From Candidatus Thiodiazotropha sp. (ex Codakia rugifera) (GTDB lineage Bacteria > Pseudomonadota > Gammaproteobacteria > Chromatiales > Chromatiaceae), in the NCBI GenBank assembly GCA_025656675.1, contig JAHXHN010000002.1, forward strand, positions 599,302-663,301: DNA of 64,000 nt, in the 5' to 3' direction. This document shows, piece by piece, positions 26,685 to 31,731 of this stretch; position 1 is the first letter of the stretch; each line of letters opens with the position of its first letter. Both the position numbers and the translations under genes were made by a program. Below the pieces are notes generated by a model. It made no database searches. It saw only the letters and a program-made list of their open reading frames with translations, and was not told the origin of the DNA.

Positions 26685-26940
26685 GAGATGGCAATAACGT
26701 ATTATTATCCATCTTTCTTCTTTCTCCAGTTATTTCCTTGCTCCGAACTATTAAAGTCGAAAACTCCGTGCTTTGTATGGCGGTAGTTTCTTGTATTCGA
26801 CTATGTAAGGGCGGTAGATACAAGTCACCTGGAGCCAGTGGGCTTTAATCATCTTATTTACCTCTACGGCTATAAGCGGAAGTCCAGGTCACAATAAGAA
26901 TTACAACCTGGTTACTCAAAAGCAGACGTAAACTCCCATC
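26685..26940. other. Non-coding boundary between trxC and the integrase relic
   Basis: I find no credible gene. A 32-codon minus-strand open stretch exists, but nothing recommends it. This is where the missing C-terminal catalytic domain of the integrase would be expected; no R-H-R-Y boxes can be read in any minus-strand frame. Confidence 0.5.
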
Positions 26941-27640
26941 TTACTCAATTCTATCCAGTGGCCTTTCAAGGACGCGAGAGAAGAAAAAGACTAAGGTATT
27001 GATGGCAAGTCACTGCATTGCCCCAGAAACCTTGCGGTTTATCGCTAAATGTTCTAAAAAGAAGCCAGTTCAATTTCTCTGCAGTCACAGGGATGCTTTT
27101 CGGAATGGAACACAAGGAAATGGTTAATCCAAGCAAGATAGCTTTTCTCGGTGTTGGGAGAATAATCAGATATTCTCATGAAAATCAGGTATTTCTGATA
27201 AATATCCGGGAAATTCTTGGCAAATCTGTTTCTAGGATCGTTCACTGTCTTCTCAATCAATTCGTAGCACCTAGCCAGGGTAGGATGATCCCTCCCAAGG
27301 ACTTTGGCACCGGAAAACCAGTGGTCCCACTCAATCTGGTTAACCCAGGGCAATTTCAGGTAGTGACAGTAAAGGAGTCTCAGTGCGTCGATTTTTTGCC
27401 TGAACTGCCATTCATTAACATGAGGATTTCTCCCGAGATGACTCAGCCAGGCGTCAACAGACGCGATGGAATGTTCCTTGAGTCGCGTGTTGGGATGGTC
27501 GTCAATGAATATCTCGATATGTCGCCGATACCAAGGCGTCGTCGCTCTGGAATGCGAAAGAGCTTCAGTACATCACTGTATTTATTCCAGAAATACTCAA
27601 TTCCTGGGTCTGTGGAAGGTTCTCTTTTTCCATGAGACAT
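26941..27640 (-). pseudogene. Integron-type tyrosine recombinase, broken and truncated
   Basis: Read on the minus strand from about 27640 (MSHGKREPSTDPGIEYFWNK). The first frame runs to IPERRR and then needs one missing base near 27538 to continue as WYRRHIEIFIDDHPNTRLKE. The second frame continues past LRLLYCHYLKLPWVNQIEWD to the core-binding domain, which reads YLIFMRISDYSPNTEKSYL. A second one-base loss in a T-run near 27057 is needed before FLEHLAINRKVSGAMQ. Next come a TGA (27010-27012), LAINTLVFFFSRVLERPLDRIE, and a TAA at 26941-26943. The core-binding part is strongly integron-integrase-like. About 190 extra residues precede it and look like a second SAM-like domain. The catalytic domain is absent, so no recombinase can be made. 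It lies on the opposite strand to, and ahead of, the cassette array, as an intI gene should. Confidence 0.8.
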
Positions 27641-27783
27641 GCCGCTCCATGCGATTAGACTCGATTGAGAACAAAGATAGAACATTAGGCGGCATAACAC
27701 AATATTTGGAGCCGGCGGCATAACGCGATAATAAGAGTCGGCAATTTAATCACTTGTTATGCATAAAAATGGAATAGGTAGCG
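27641..27783. promoter_or_regulatory. attI-like recombination region
   Basis: Between the presumed intI start and the first cassette gene lie two copies of GGCGGCATAAC (27688-27698 and 27714-27724). The complementary core GTTATGC (27756-27762) stands just before the first gene. GCATAAC and GTTATGC are exact reverse complements. This is where attI and the cassette promoter would be. The assignment is by position and core sequence only. Confidence 0.45.
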
Positions 27784-28287
27784 ATGGATTCTCCTCCACC
27801 AATAATTGATTCATGCAAATTGCTTTTCTATGCAAGTAATGAAGATGATGTGACATTTACAGACCGTATAAGTCTATTTGTTGGTGGTAGCGGTGATGAA
27901 CTAAAACCTATTGGAGAAGTTCAAAATCTTGCGATTTCCAGAACTTATTATGAGCCACATGAATTCTTGCTTATGTTTTGTAAAGAGGATTGGGCTGTGA
28001 AAGGTGTAATTCCTTTCACAACAATTGAAGAAGCAAAAACCAAGGCAGAAAAAGGTTACAACGGTATTTCATCAAAATGGAAAATGAGTCCATATAACGA
28101 AGAAGATATCGATGATTTTCTTAGAGACGAATATGAGGTTGACCCAAAGTCCGAGTGGTGGACTACAATCTGTTCATTTTGTGGTAGAAAAGATACAGAG
28201 TTTTCGCGGTTACTAGAGGGTAAACATGCAGTTATATGTGAAGGCTGCGTTAATAAGTTTTATAAGGTATTCAACGAAAATGCATAA
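27784..28287 (+). CDS. Cassette protein with C-terminal ClpX-type C4 zinc finger
   Basis: 167 residues, function unknown. The C-terminal part (about residues 130-160) reads CSFCGRKDTEF, then VICEGCVNKFY. This is the CxxC...CxxC pattern of the ClpX zinc-binding domain, which in ClpX serves dimerisation and substrate or adaptor binding. No AAA+ domain is present. The N-terminal 125 residues are not recognised. A standalone finger could bind ClpX or a ClpX adaptor, but that is speculation. First gene after the attI-like region; its stop codon lies in the GCATAAC core of the next attC. Confidence 0.7.
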   Translation: MDSPPPIIDSCKLLFYASNEDDVTFTDRISLFVGGSGDELKPIGEVQNLAISRTYYEPHEFLLMFCKEDWAVKGVIPFTTIEEAKTKAEKGYNGISSKWKMSPYNEEDIDDFLRDEYEVDPKSEWWTTICSFCGRKDTEFSRLLEGKHAVICEGCVNKFYKVFNENA

Positions 28288-28344
28288 CCATTGGCTCCAG
28301 TGGATGCTCGCTTTCGCTCGCCCCACTGAGCCTGGTCGTTATAC
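28282..28344 (+). repeat. attC site 1
   Basis: 63 bp from GCATAAC (28282-28288) to GTTATAC (28338-28344). The inner arms GGCT-C-CAGTGG and CCACTGAGCC pair with one unpaired extra base, the hallmark of attC folding. The preceding stop codon is inside the 5' core. Confidence 0.75.
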
Positions 28345-28358
28345 AAATAGGAGAAGAA

Positions 28359-28817
28359 ATGGATAATTTGGGGATTTGGAAAACTATCAAGATAGGATTC
28401 TGGCTTGGGATCGGGTTCATTGTTCCCCAGTTAGTGGTTTTATACTCTGGTACCATGCTCACTATGTTGGCAATACCTTCAATGATGGAAGACTCGCTGG
28501 AGAATAATTCTCTATCGGAGTTTGACAAAACAAATCAGATTAAAGTCCTCGAGTATAGAGAAGAATTAAGCGGTAAGCAGTTGTTGATACTAGGATCCAT
28601 CAAAAATGAAGGGACAGGAAAGGCTAGTTCTATACGTCTTGAAGCAGAATTGCTAGATTCAGATGGAAGATTTGTATTTGAATGCTCAGAATATATAAAC
28701 AAAAAGCTCAAACCGGGGGAAACAGAATATTTTCAAATTAAATGTGGTTGTGGTGACACTGTTGCACCAGAGCATTCGAGTATCACTGTACGTGTGGTTT
28801 CGGCCAGCAATTATTAA
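28359..28817 (+). CDS. Membrane-anchored FxLYD-like cassette protein
   Basis: 152 residues. One N-terminal hydrophobic helix (about residues 10-32, SNIGFWLGIGF-like region) is followed by a periplasmic or extracytoplasmic Ig-like beta domain. That domain contains LLILGSIKNEGTGKASSIRL and LKPGETEYFQIKC, the pattern of FxLYD domains. The role of such proteins is unknown. AGGAGAAG lies just ahead of the ATG. Second cassette of the array. Confidence 0.65.
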   Translation: MDNLGIWKTIKIGFWLGIGFIVPQLVVLYSGTMLTMLAIPSMMEDSLENNSLSEFDKTNQIKVLEYREELSGKQLLILGSIKNEGTGKASSIRLEAELLDSDGRFVFECSEYINKKLKPGETEYFQIKCGCGDTVAPEHSSITVRVVSASNY

Positions 28818-28818
28818 T

Positions 28819-28905
28819 GAATAACCAGGGCGTTAACTCGAACCCTATAAAGCGGTGTTCGTTCCTCACACCACTTTATGGGTCCGGTTACGTCTGTCGT
28901 TAGCG
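28819..28905 (+). repeat. attC site 2
   Basis: 87 bp from GAATAAC (28819-28825) to GTTAGCG (28899-28905). A long hairpin forms from ACCC-T-ATAAAG-C-GGTGT and ACACC-A-CTTTATGGGT, with one bulged base and a mismatch. The outer cores match each other poorly, so this site may be partly degraded. Confidence 0.6.
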
Positions 28906-28927
28906 CTAATAAGGAAGGAAACAATAA

Positions 28928-29443
28928 ATGGGAAAAATCGTATTACTGTTTGCTCTGCTTTTTTCAACTTTAGCAGCGGCAGGTGAGCGGGAAGAAAAGA
29001 TCAGGCAACTAATGGAAGCACAAGGGCTTTTACAAACCTTTGAGCAGCAACTTGAGCTTAGTCGCCAGCAAAACCAGCAGCAAGGGCGTGACATGCTTAA
29101 TCAGTTCATGGCTCAATTGAATCCCACCCCCGAATTCTACGAGCGTTTCGAAAATGCATTTAACTCTTTTATGTCAAAGATAGAGACCCCTTGGTCTGCT
29201 GAAGAAATCGTCGAAGTCTGGGCAAAATACTACGGTGAGCATTTCAGCAACGCCGAGCTCGATCAGTTGCTATCCCATTACTCGTCACCACTTGCTCAAA
29301 AAGAAGTGATAGCTTCCCGAAAAGCACTAGTAAGTTTTTCAAACCATTTTATGCAAGAAGGTAAGCCTATTGCTGAAAATGCGTTATCTGAGTTCATCAC
29401 TGAAATGAAAGTCATTGCCAAAGAATGCAAATGCAAACGCTAA
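28928..29443 (+). CDS. DUF2059-like secreted cassette protein
   Basis: 171 residues. A signal peptide (KIVLLFALLFSTLAAAG, cleavage near residue 19) is followed by an all-helical, Gln/Glu-rich domain. The segment WAKYYGEHFSNAELDQLLSHY and then SPLAQKEV is characteristic of DUF2059 proteins, which are usually periplasmic and of unknown function. Third cassette; the stop overlaps the CGCTAAC core. GGAAGG precedes the ATG. Confidence 0.7.
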   Translation: MGKIVLLFALLFSTLAAAGEREEKIRQLMEAQGLLQTFEQQLELSRQQNQQQGRDMLNQFMAQLNPTPEFYERFENAFNSFMSKIETPWSAEEIVEVWAKYYGEHFSNAELDQLLSHYSSPLAQKEVIASRKALVSFSNHFMQEGKPIAENALSEFITEMKVIAKECKCKR

Positions 29444-29513
29444 CAAAAACATCAACTTCGCGCCTATCGGTGCCGGGCGCTCCTTCGTCGCACCGGTTAT
29501 ATTGACGTTAAGT
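29438..29513 (+). repeat. attC site 3
   Basis: 76 bp from CGCTAAC (29438-29444) to GTTAAGT (29507-29513), the latter a full GTTRRRY match. CGGTGC and GCACCG form the terminal stem around a 14-16 base loop. Confidence 0.65.
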
Positions 29514-29537
29514 TTCGCAAATACAGAGATAACAATA

Positions 29538-30419
29538 ATGTTTCAGTATATGTATTATCTGCCGATTGCTCTAATAATAATATTTATCCTACTTGGTATT
29601 CGAGTTATTCGGCCGACTCACAGAGGGTTGGTGGAGCGACTTGGTAAATATCAACGATTTGCTGAGCCTGGCTTCCACTGGATAATTCCTATAATGGATA
29701 GAATGTATAAAGTAAATATTACCGAAGAAATGGTCGATGCTGAGCCTAGAGTAATAATTACTAATGATAACCTCAATGTGACCGTTGATGCTCAAGTATA
29801 TTTCAAGATAAACCAAGATGAGGACAATGTAAAAAATTCACAATATAATGTGGATGATGTAAGACATCAAATGGTTAGTTTAGCAAGAACGACTCTAAGA
29901 AATATTATTGGCACACTTTCACTAAAATCCGCAAATAGTGAACGTAATAAAATTAACAAACAACTTTACGATACCTTAATGAGTGAAACCAAAAGCTGGG
30001 GTGTGGAGATAATAAGGGCTGAACTAAAGCAAATAGAACCACCCAAAGATGTTCAAAGCACAATGAATCAAGTTGTCAAAGCAGAAAATGAAAAAATCGC
30101 AGCCATAGATTTTGCTACTGCTAAAGAAACAGAAGCTGATGGCCAAAAGAGAGCAACTATTAAGCACGCTGAAGGAATAAGAGCTTCCCGCATTTTACAT
30201 GCAGAGGGTGAAGCAGAGGCTATAAGACTAGTTTATGAATCAGCAAATCAATACTTTTTAGGAAACGCACAGCTCCTAAAACGCCTTGAGACGTTATCAA
30301 ATGCTCTAGAGGAAAATACTACTATTGTAGTTCCATCAAATAGTGATTTGGTTAATGTTATTGGAGATCTGGCGGGTGTGATTCCAGCTAAACAGAACGC
30401 AAAATCAAATAAAACCTAA
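29538..30419 (+). CDS. SPFH/Band 7 (stomatin/paraslipin-like) membrane protein
   Basis: 293 residues. One N-terminal transmembrane helix (YYLPIALIIIFILLGIRVI) is followed by the band 7 domain (VVRPTHRG-like RPTHRGLVERLGKYQRFAEP through about residue 190) and a long Ala/Glu-rich helix. It belongs with the stomatin/slipin oligomers that scaffold membrane microdomains and regulate proteases. Partner NfeD is not adjacent. I start it at MFQYMYYLPIAL; the frame is open upstream through the attC site but has no ribosome site there. An unusual cargo for a cassette, and clearly AT-rich in codon choice. Confidence 0.85.
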   Translation: MFQYMYYLPIALIIIFILLGIRVIRPTHRGLVERLGKYQRFAEPGFHWIIPIMDRMYKVNITEEMVDAEPRVIITNDNLNVTVDAQVYFKINQDEDNVKNSQYNVDDVRHQMVSLARTTLRNIIGTLSLKSANSERNKINKQLYDTLMSETKSWGVEIIRAELKQIEPPKDVQSTMNQVVKAENEKIAAIDFATAKETEADGQKRATIKHAEGIRASRILHAEGEAEAIRLVYESANQYFLGNAQLLKRLETLSNALEENTTIVVPSNSDLVNVIGDLAGVIPAKQNAKSNKT

Positions 30420-30478
30420 CATGCGGCTTAACTCATGCACAAAAGCCCCGCCCTACCCTTGGGATCGACTGATGTGAG
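30414..30478 (+). repeat. Degenerate attC site 4
   Basis: Starts ACCTAAC (30414-30420) over the stop codon. A partial stem GCGGCTT/AAGCCCCGC follows. No GTTRRRY core can be found before the next gene, so the 3' half is lost or altered. Confidence 0.35.
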
Positions 30479-30483
30479 GAATT

Positions 30484-30942
30484 ATGCATGAAATGAGCAT
30501 GGACTGGATAAATGAAGCAAAGCGGATTTTCTGTATGGATAAACCTAAGCACTTCACAAACTACAAGCACTGTGAAGAATGTGAGGAACATGACCAAACA
30601 CTAGTCAACTCATCAATTGATACAATTAGCTTGGAAGAGCTTGGGAATCCGGGGTGGGACCCAATCTGCTTTTCATCAGCTGAGGGCAAAAAATTCTATA
30701 TGCCAGCACTGATCCGATTAAGTCTCGAAACAATAGATGATGATTTTTACTTTGGTCAATTGTTATTTCACTTAGAAGCTGACGGAGCGAATAATAATCT
30801 ATTCATTTCTTGCAACTCAGAACAGCGTGAATACATTAAAACCTTCATTGAATACATCATATTACAGCACTCAGAGCAACTAGTAATACAGCACTATGAA
30901 AATGAAGCACTTAGAGTGCAGGAAATATGGTCAAATGCATAA
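30484..30942 (+). CDS. Hypothetical cassette protein
   Basis: 152 residues, soluble, acidic, without signal or membrane helix. Two distinctive stretches, HFTNYKHCEECEEHDQTL and LGNPGWDPICFSSAEGKKF, are compact and well formed. They suggest a real family with paired cysteines, one I recall only as uncharacterised. GTGAGG precedes the ATG. Fifth cassette; its TAA stop lies in GCATAAC. Confidence 0.65.
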   Translation: MHEMSMDWINEAKRIFCMDKPKHFTNYKHCEECEEHDQTLVNSSIDTISLEELGNPGWDPICFSSAEGKKFYMPALIRLSLETIDDDFYFGQLLFHLEADGANNNLFISCNSEQREYIKTFIEYIILQHSEQLVIQHYENEALRVQEIWSNA

Positions 30943-30997
30943 CAAAGGCCTCTATTGGAACTCACAGCTGCTTGCCCGCTAAGGCTGGGCGTTAAAT
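30937..30997 (+). repeat. attC site 5
   Basis: 61 bp from GCATAAC (30937-30943) to GTTAAAT (30991-30997, full GTTRRRY match). Inner short stems such as CAGC/GCTG can form. The stop codon of the gene lies inside the 5' core. Confidence 0.65.
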
Positions 30998-31046
30998 TCT
31001 AAGGGAGTCGAGTTGAGTTTATTTAAAATGGATTTTCAGGAAGTTT

Positions 31047-31370
31047 GTTGTGGTAGAACTCAAGGAGTCCTCTAATATTAATCGCGCTGACGAAAATGAT
31101 GCTAAAGAATTACTTTCCCAGGAAAATAATTAACCACAATAAGTTAACGGAAAGTGCTACTTAATAGATAGTATTAGAGACGATAATATTAACTTTCATT
31201 GGGCTATTGCTCAATTTGAGGATGATCGCTTTAATGACTCAATACTAGTTGAGTTCATTCAAGATAGCTTGTAAGAACAAAATAGGCTTTTTAAAGAAGA
31301 ATTTCCTGAACAAATACCCCTATGGGTTAATCCAGTATAGAATGATTATTATCAGGTAGCAGACATTGAG
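31047..31370 (+). pseudogene. Relic of an unrecognised coding region with several stops
   Basis: One plus-strand frame reads protein-like text interrupted by stops: VVELKESSNINRADENDAKE, stop, then WAIAQFEDDRFNDSILVEFI, stop, then LFKEEFPEQIPLWVNPV, stop. The uninterrupted frame and the sensible acidic/hydrophobic pattern suggest a decayed gene rather than chance. It may be an old cassette. No family recognised. Confidence 0.4.
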
Positions 31371-31731
31371 TAAATTCTACAAGCGGCAGCAGTCGGAAGG
31401 TATAGGTGTGTCCGCCAAAGTGAAGGAAGCACAAGCAATATTTCAAAATTTAATATGTCAGAACAGTCCTCCTAACTAATGCTTTCAGAAGATAATTGAC
31501 GAGGTGTTGGTGCAACTCGATTTCAATGCTTTGGATGAACTGGCGGGTGGGTTTGCTATAGAATAGAAAGGTAACAGTAACATCGCATCATTACAGGCTT
31601 AACCGAACATCAATAGTCTTGGGTAAGATCTCTTCTAAAATAAATTCTCGAAATGCACCTAAAAAAACTTTGATTCAATCACCGAAAAGAGGCTATCCAC
31701 AAATGGTTGCTGACAAGTCGGGTTAGCATGT
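31371..31731. other. Gene-free accessory stretch
   Basis: AT-rich, with no frame that holds a credible protein. A short in-frame piece near 31496-31566 (VLVQLDFNALDELAGGFAIE) may be another fragment. No attC site recognised. Confidence 0.4.

Follow-up and report, generated by a model that had tools for sequence, protein, structure and literature searches.

A dead copy of a chromosomal integron in the clam symbiont Candidatus Thiodiazotropha, probably duplicated after the death of its integrase gene

In integrons, an integrase recombines the folded bottom strand of a cassette's attC site with the attI site, so that genes accumulate beside the integrase gene intI. Large sedentary chromosomal integrons of the Vibrio type hold tens of cassettes with near-identical attC sites. 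Clusters of attC sites lacking integron-integrases (CALINs), with at least two attC sites and no integrase, have been proposed to be degraded integrons (IntegronFinder 2.0, PMC9024848). Here we describe an element of this kind in a stretch of 64,000 nucleotides (the window, G000:C2:599302-663301) from Candidatus Thiodiazotropha sp. (ex Codakia rugifera). G000 is the window's own genome, of 4.65 Mb in 19 contigs; G001 and the following numbers denote other genomes compared with it, and L-numbers denote fetched loci. By published definitions, the element is a CALIN with a pseudo-intI, which is a known kind: it comprises four attC sites and has no intact integrase nearby. The lack of an intact intI sets it apart from complete integrons, and it departs from the Vibrio type in having just four attC sites, which vary in sequence and size. 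The reading that we favour, with a probability of about 0.85, is that it represents a dead copy of a chromosomal integron, duplicated after its death.

Three papers describe the closest cases. Nearly one third of intI genes were reported to be broken, and many pseudo-integrons seem to come from intragenomic duplication (Nemergut 2008, PMC2426708). The cases presented there pair a functional gene with an almost identical pseudogene in one genome, whereas the genome studied here contains two broken twins with common deletions. Compared with the CALINs outlined in PMC9024848, our element still has a pseudo-intI and an attI in place, and the relic is found twice in the genome. In Xanthomonas, a genus-wide platform, mostly at one ancestral site at ilvD, has undergone repeated loss of intI that left arrays behind, and a functional IntI can mobilise CALINs in trans (PMC12444791, 2025). 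Candidatus Thiodiazotropha resembles Xanthomonas as described there in having a genus-wide platform and loss of intI, but differs from it by the presence of several platforms in one clam-symbiont genome.

The integrase relic, its attI leader and their twin beside sat

By its family match and DNA alignments, the minus-strand relic at the head of the array is a broken integron integrase gene (Table 1). One of its open reading frames (ORFs; 27054-27353, minus strand) matches PF13495 with 38.6 bits (cut-off 27). The same ORF matches TIGR02249 weakly (21.4 bits, cut-off 265), which would be expected for a fragment, and the profile search gave no Pfam or TIGR/NCBI family match for a second ORF at 27443-27721. 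None of the 17 PF00589 matches in G000 lies on the window's contig. Most of the stretch 26956-27760 is 86% identical to L074 (G009) and 83% identical to L076 (G019), both of which have open frames of 460 codons, and 94% identical to another relic, L073, in G001. In the DNA alignment an internal deletion has removed the catalytic part of the window relic, so that the core-binding part runs directly into the final few codons and the stop, and three single-base deletions come on top of this loss.

The same genome contains a second relic on contig C6 (L069), with 97.4% DNA identity to window positions 26956-27760 (784 of 805 bases). All three single-base deletions are common to the window and L069; none of them is present in the aligned G001 relic L073, which is broken by a different internal deletion, nor in the open genes of L074 and L076. 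Because the two relics of G000 share these deletions, it is probably a dead platform that was copied, death having preceded duplication. As for the direction of copying, the relic adjoins sat in both G000 (L069) and G001 (L073). The sat site is therefore taken as the older one, and the copy in the window as the duplicate.

The putative attI is a leader next to the 5' end of intI, upstream of the start of the relic gene; its direct repeats were read by eye. Eight other leaders match it, namely two in G000 (L069, and L133 at C6:237.8 kb) and one each in G009, G019, G001, G003, G013 and G021. Six of the eight extend to the core, those of L075 (G003) and L077 (G021) stopping earlier, and in the G001 copy (L073) the core is mutated. 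Beyond the core, the window and the six core-reaching leaders all diverge from one another. The base-level comparison included the window, L069, L073, L074, L075, L076 and L081, with L133 left aside. The leader is thus shared with open intI genes and its homology ends at the core; relic and leader together match platforms with open intI in G009, G019 and G013. At L133 (7833-9319), a leader of the same kind is accompanied by two attC matches, with no intI match listed there, and one of the cassette genes at this locus resembles, and may encode, a TIR-type protein.

attC sites, cassettes and the fate of the array

To model attC sites we built a covariance model, R1, from 20 sites of relatives, none of them from the window. 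R1 matched all four places at which the preliminary description, made from the sequence alone, had predicted attC-like spacers (28282, 28819, 29438 and 30937), with the predicted starts and all on one strand. The fifth spacer, for which it had reported a 5' core only, gave no match with filters on or off. Besides the four attC sites, the sole R1 match at E<=10 in the 64-kb window is a weak one in the attI region (27718-27762, E 0.088). With filters off, R1 gave 13 matches at E<=10 between 26 and 33 kb, of which the five just named alone fall below E 0.05; in the search of all 64 kb nothing but the four attC sites reaches that value. With the four sites on one strand and the genes on the plus strand, the cassettes are oriented away from intI; cassette gene 4 has no attC of its own. 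attC 3 has a counterpart with 83% identity to window positions 29441-29510 on another contig of G000 (C3:886-954).

The sites behind R1 were obtained by reducing 36 candidates from 10 chosen loci to 25 in alignment A1 and then to 20; an earlier list had contained 88 rows from 18 loci, with most places counted on both strands. The three L069 sites, one of which nearly duplicates attC 1, were excluded together with an attI and with candidates that were questionable, aligned poorly, or were short or long; since irregular candidates were thus removed, R1 leans towards regular sites. The alignment comprises the R and L arms and one extrahelical base. In the 20 training sites, 86.8% of cells pair, and sliding the partners lowers pairing to 27-39%. 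Changes on both sides affect 53 cells, a value reached by none of 500 shuffles. Other measures are less striking, as 60 of 500 shuffles were as high for pairs with a change on both sides and 37 of 500 for further pair types. Part of the pairing signal arises by construction, because sites were picked for their cores and symmetric fold. The E-values of R1 are rough, owing to a short calibration, and by extrapolation attC 2 and attC 3 would fail an E of 0.01 in a search of the entire 4.65-Mb genome. In 35 other loci R1 found 42 sites at E<=0.1, distributed over 16 loci. None of these 42 matches falls in the 11 loci without a known integron (L082-L090, L123, L124), and eight loci holding integron pieces also gave no match at that threshold (L073, L074, L077, L080, L081, L092, L103, L108). 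A first pattern-and-fold scan, which returned 18 rows in the window, had missed attC 2 to attC 4, hence the need for a covariance model; a ratio of at least 0.5 was reached by attC 1 on both strands, by the attI region and, in three rows, by two further places.

The preliminary description took the locus for a decayed chromosomal integron in which intI is broken and the array small, and this is borne out by the PF13495 match, the DNA homology with open genes, the lost catalytic part and the attC matches of R1. A non-integron origin, with a row of small genes and hairpins lying by chance next to a fragment of a phage-type integrase, would fit the relic's own score against TIGR02249, just 21 bits, and the weakness of two spacers. 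Such a coincidence is contradicted by an independent attC model, by an attI leader common to open intI genes and by attC matches in 21 of the 22 genomes of the genus, and we consider it extremely improbable.

Table 1. Features of the element and of its surroundings in the window
Feature	Position	Strand	Description and evidence
Left neighbours			dnaE, accA, tilS, thioredoxin-TPR gene, thioredoxin-2 gene (window ORF list; Pfam for the thioredoxins)
Former downstream flank of intI	26867..26940	-	26867-26966 86% identical to the stretch behind the G001 sat-locus relic (L073 1877-1779)
intI relic, from a 460-codon long-type integron integrase	26941..27635	-	PF13495 match; DNA alignment with L074, L076 (open), L069, L073 (relics)
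Putative attI	27676..27762	+	leader; two imperfect direct repeats, 27690-27704 and 27716-27730; core 27756-27762
Cassette gene 1	27784..28287	+	167 aa; C-terminal ClpX-type C4 zinc finger; PF06689 37.6 bits, cut-off 27
attC 1	28282..28344	- (bottom strand modelled)	R1 63.2 bits, E 2.5e-13
Cassette gene 2	28359..28817	+	152 aa; FxLYD-domain-like; NF038353 26.3 bits, cut-off 23
attC 2	28819..28905	-	R1 23.7 bits, E 0.0016
Cassette gene 3	28928..29443	+	171 aa; DUF2059; PF09832 28.4 bits, cut-off 23.6
attC 3	29438..29513	-	R1 23.1 bits, E 0.0023
Cassette gene 4	29538..30419	+	293 aa; SPFH/Band-7, HflK-like; PF01145 135 bits
Fifth spacer	about 30415 to 30483-30486		5' core only
Cassette gene 5	30484..30942	+	152 aa; DUF6714; PF20461 27.2 bits, cut-off 27
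attC 4	30937..30997	-	R1 39.1 bits, E 2.5e-7
Low-GC tail	30998..31716		36% GC for 31000-31716; without long ORF; before the conserved right flank
Right neighbours			small conserved gene, phasin-like gene, PHA-synthase-like gene (window ORF list)

The array comprises five uninterrupted plus-strand ORFs, if gene 4 is taken from the start at 29538, and has a GC content of 39.6%, with 50.5 and 52.5% in two flanking stretches. Gene 4 scores 107 bits against TIGR01933, below the cut-off of 159, and PADLOC assigned none of the five genes to a family. Protein searches in 22 or 56 genomes covered genes 1, 3 and 4. For these three genes the searches revealed no conserved non-integron operon of the window's order. 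Among the 22 genus genomes, gene 1 was found in G000 alone, as itself, as a decayed tail on C6 and as a weak zinc-finger match on C3. Gene 4 is present at E<=1e-40 in G000 and in one other of 56 genomes (37% identical), and gene 3 was found as itself and as two weak matches (3 of 56 genomes).

The decayed tail of gene 1 and its attC lie about 4 kb into the sat array on C6, which also contains another DUF2059 gene. The first cassettes of the window differ from those of the sat copy, with the break inside the attI core, and the array therefore seems to have changed after death. We propose the following sequence of events for an element that would formerly have worked as an integron. In an ancestor of the symbiont, a long-type integrase at the sat locus would have lost its frame. 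A piece of the dead platform, from the end of intI to attI, would then have been copied to the thioredoxin/phasin region, and in this copy intI would have gone on to lose its catalytic part too. After integrase death, cassettes or whole arrays may have been exchanged at the attI core. The simplest agent of this would be a different integrase that worked in trans, and to such an exchange in trans we give slightly less than an even chance.

Alternatively, the platform died and was copied as proposed, ordinary deletions and rearrangements, with no integrase involved, made the arrays diverge, and the present array is frozen, which is closest to the preliminary description. The intI relic is indeed thoroughly broken, a truncated zinc-finger tail testifies to deletion within a cassette of the sat array, and the sole intact integrase noted in G000 belongs to another type. 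However, the shared segment stops within the short attI core in both copies, a place that chance deletions would rarely hit, and we regard divergence by such deletions as rather unlikely. Of the initial proposal that the platform lost its recombinase, thereby freezing the array, the first part stands, as intI is broken. The second part fares less well, as the relic was probably dead before copying and the first cassettes differ from those of the sat copy. Freezing is not forced, since G000 encodes at least one integron integrase that is intact, albeit of a different kind, but for the present array it may still hold. The intact-frame protein in question, on C15 (342 aa, TIGR02249 475.5 bits) is 44-45% identical to the long type and hence of another type.

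Surroundings of the element and the weight of the evidence

Among the neighbouring genes, the thioredoxins were assigned by Pfam, and the others are what we take from their translations to be dnaE, accA, tilS and the phasin-like and PHA-synthase-like genes. In G001, carA follows the thioredoxin-2 gene, and the small gene on the right adjoins a hydrolase gene, on two separate contigs; the small gene is also beside the hydrolase gene in G011. In G000, carA is on the window's contig at a distance of about 193 kb, and the hydrolase gene had no match in a search run without a positive control. As the left and right neighbours differ in G001 and G011, the element is, to judge from gene order, at a rearrangement point. 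Recombination between two integrons was considered for the left-hand rearrangement and dropped, as no piece of the element and no attC were found in the 20 kb through carA in G000. On the right, homology with the integron-free loci L083 (G001) and L085 (G011) resumes at 31717, 5 bases before a GTTAGC-like core (window 31717-31728), a candidate secondary integration site. A decayed cassette is a possible origin of the low-GC tail in front of it, three pieces of which (31.0-31.7 kb) had no Pfam match. An Rfam search of 26.6-32.1 kb returned no match.

A location at a rearrangement point would also be expected if the array had arrived as a mobile integron, on a plasmid or transposon, rather than by copying of a chromosomal platform. 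Nevertheless, the element had no match in 72,556 plasmid records, no systematic search for insertion sequences having been made, and the best match of the relic in G000 is the sat platform. Arrival on a mobile integron thus appears improbable to us.

A number of observations weigh against a dead copy whose array later changed. We saw no clean empty site: carA is the neighbour on the left in G001, and the hydrolase gene that on the right in G001 and G011. Two attC sites score just 23-24 bits, and one spacer has no attC match. Promoter and terminator scans gave matches at chance level only, promoter-like sites being no better than that. A shared death could be mimicked by gene conversion between the relics, and something other than cassette exchange may have made the copied piece end at attI. 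Lastly, as regards exchange in trans, the C15 integrase is of another type, and no leader of the window's attI kind was found in its stretch. It is in spite of these points that we favour the copying of a dead integron.

Integrons and long integrases across the genus

Integron integrases and attC sites are widespread in Candidatus Thiodiazotropha. TIGR02249 matches above cut-off are present in 19 of 22 genus genomes, the exceptions being G007, G008 and G014, although G012 qualifies only with neighbours in frame. At E<=0.01, R1 finds at least one site in 21 of the 22 genomes, with counts summing to at least 248, including 18 in G000 and 40 in G013; scoring was limited to 150 candidates per genome, and these genomes supplied 16 of the 20 training sites. 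Among the matches listed for G013, sites are spread over many contigs and some are apparently solitary, so that dispersed single cassettes are possible in this genome. In G000, contig C9 (L070) has decayed integrase matches that lie near each other on opposite strands, and attC matches occur in their vicinity. Several Thiodiazotropha genomes contain short, scattered pieces of intI, for instance at L091 4265-4618 (G001:C30).

For an integrase tree, 27 loci yielded 21 proteins by a motif rule, to which L074 and L076 were added to give 23; the six loci without a protein by this rule were L010, L011, L013, L014 (the C15 integrase of G000), L030 and L035. Twelve of the 23 integrases are long (459-489 aa by the ORF rule) and fall on one side of a branch with support of 97/97, recovered in 98% of 200 bootstrap trees, in a tree for which long branches were warned of and which does not include further long genes of the TIGR02249 list. 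The extensions of all 12 match one another by BLASTP. In the open long integrase of Ca. Thiodiazotropha endolucinida (L112 646-2028), the core-binding-like domain PF13495 matches the N-terminal extension at residues 20-98 with 31 bits (cut-off 27). The whole L112 protein contains two stretches that match this domain, and L081 likewise has two. The window relic is homologous to the extension at the DNA level, its own ORF piece there giving no Pfam match. Eleven named loci encode relatives of the long integrases: four belong to Candidatus Thiodiazotropha, four to the gamma proteobacterium symbiont of Ctena orbiculata and three to cyanobacteria. AlphaFold modelling of a long integrase gave a poor result (mean pLDDT 40.9, two sequences), which was set aside.

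No description of a second core-binding domain in integron integrases was found in the titles and beginnings of abstracts searched, nor in the part of PMC3414803 consulted. Fused intI genes described by Nemergut 2008 (PMC2426708) may be the same thing. These genes of clade 15, whose products are about 120 aa longer on average than usual and which are attributed to a single fusion event, resemble those of the Thiodiazotropha long integrases in their extra length; clade 15 is assigned to Deltaproteobacteria.

It is tempting to speculate that dead platforms of Ca. Thiodiazotropha behave as non-autonomous elements. Relics that keep their attI would be copied to other places in the chromosome and would continue to gain or lose cassettes through an integrase acting in trans, which would give rise to several 'parasitic' platforms per genome. 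The original integrases would constitute a single group in which the core-binding-like domain is doubled, and this may alter how attI or attC is held. We put this scenario forward as a tentative one, on the doubtful side of what we propose.

Our literature search found no paper on integrons in Candidatus Thiodiazotropha, the two being mentioned together only in a paper on the microbiota of the zebra mussel. This work documents chromosomal integrons in this genus of symbionts and, for one of them, points to an order of events in which the integrase died, the platform was copied and a different array then followed. Concrete candidates for testing are the integrases that carry a second core-binding-like domain. 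If cassettes do travel to and from platforms devoid of an integrase, counts of 'inactive' integrons would understate what still moves.

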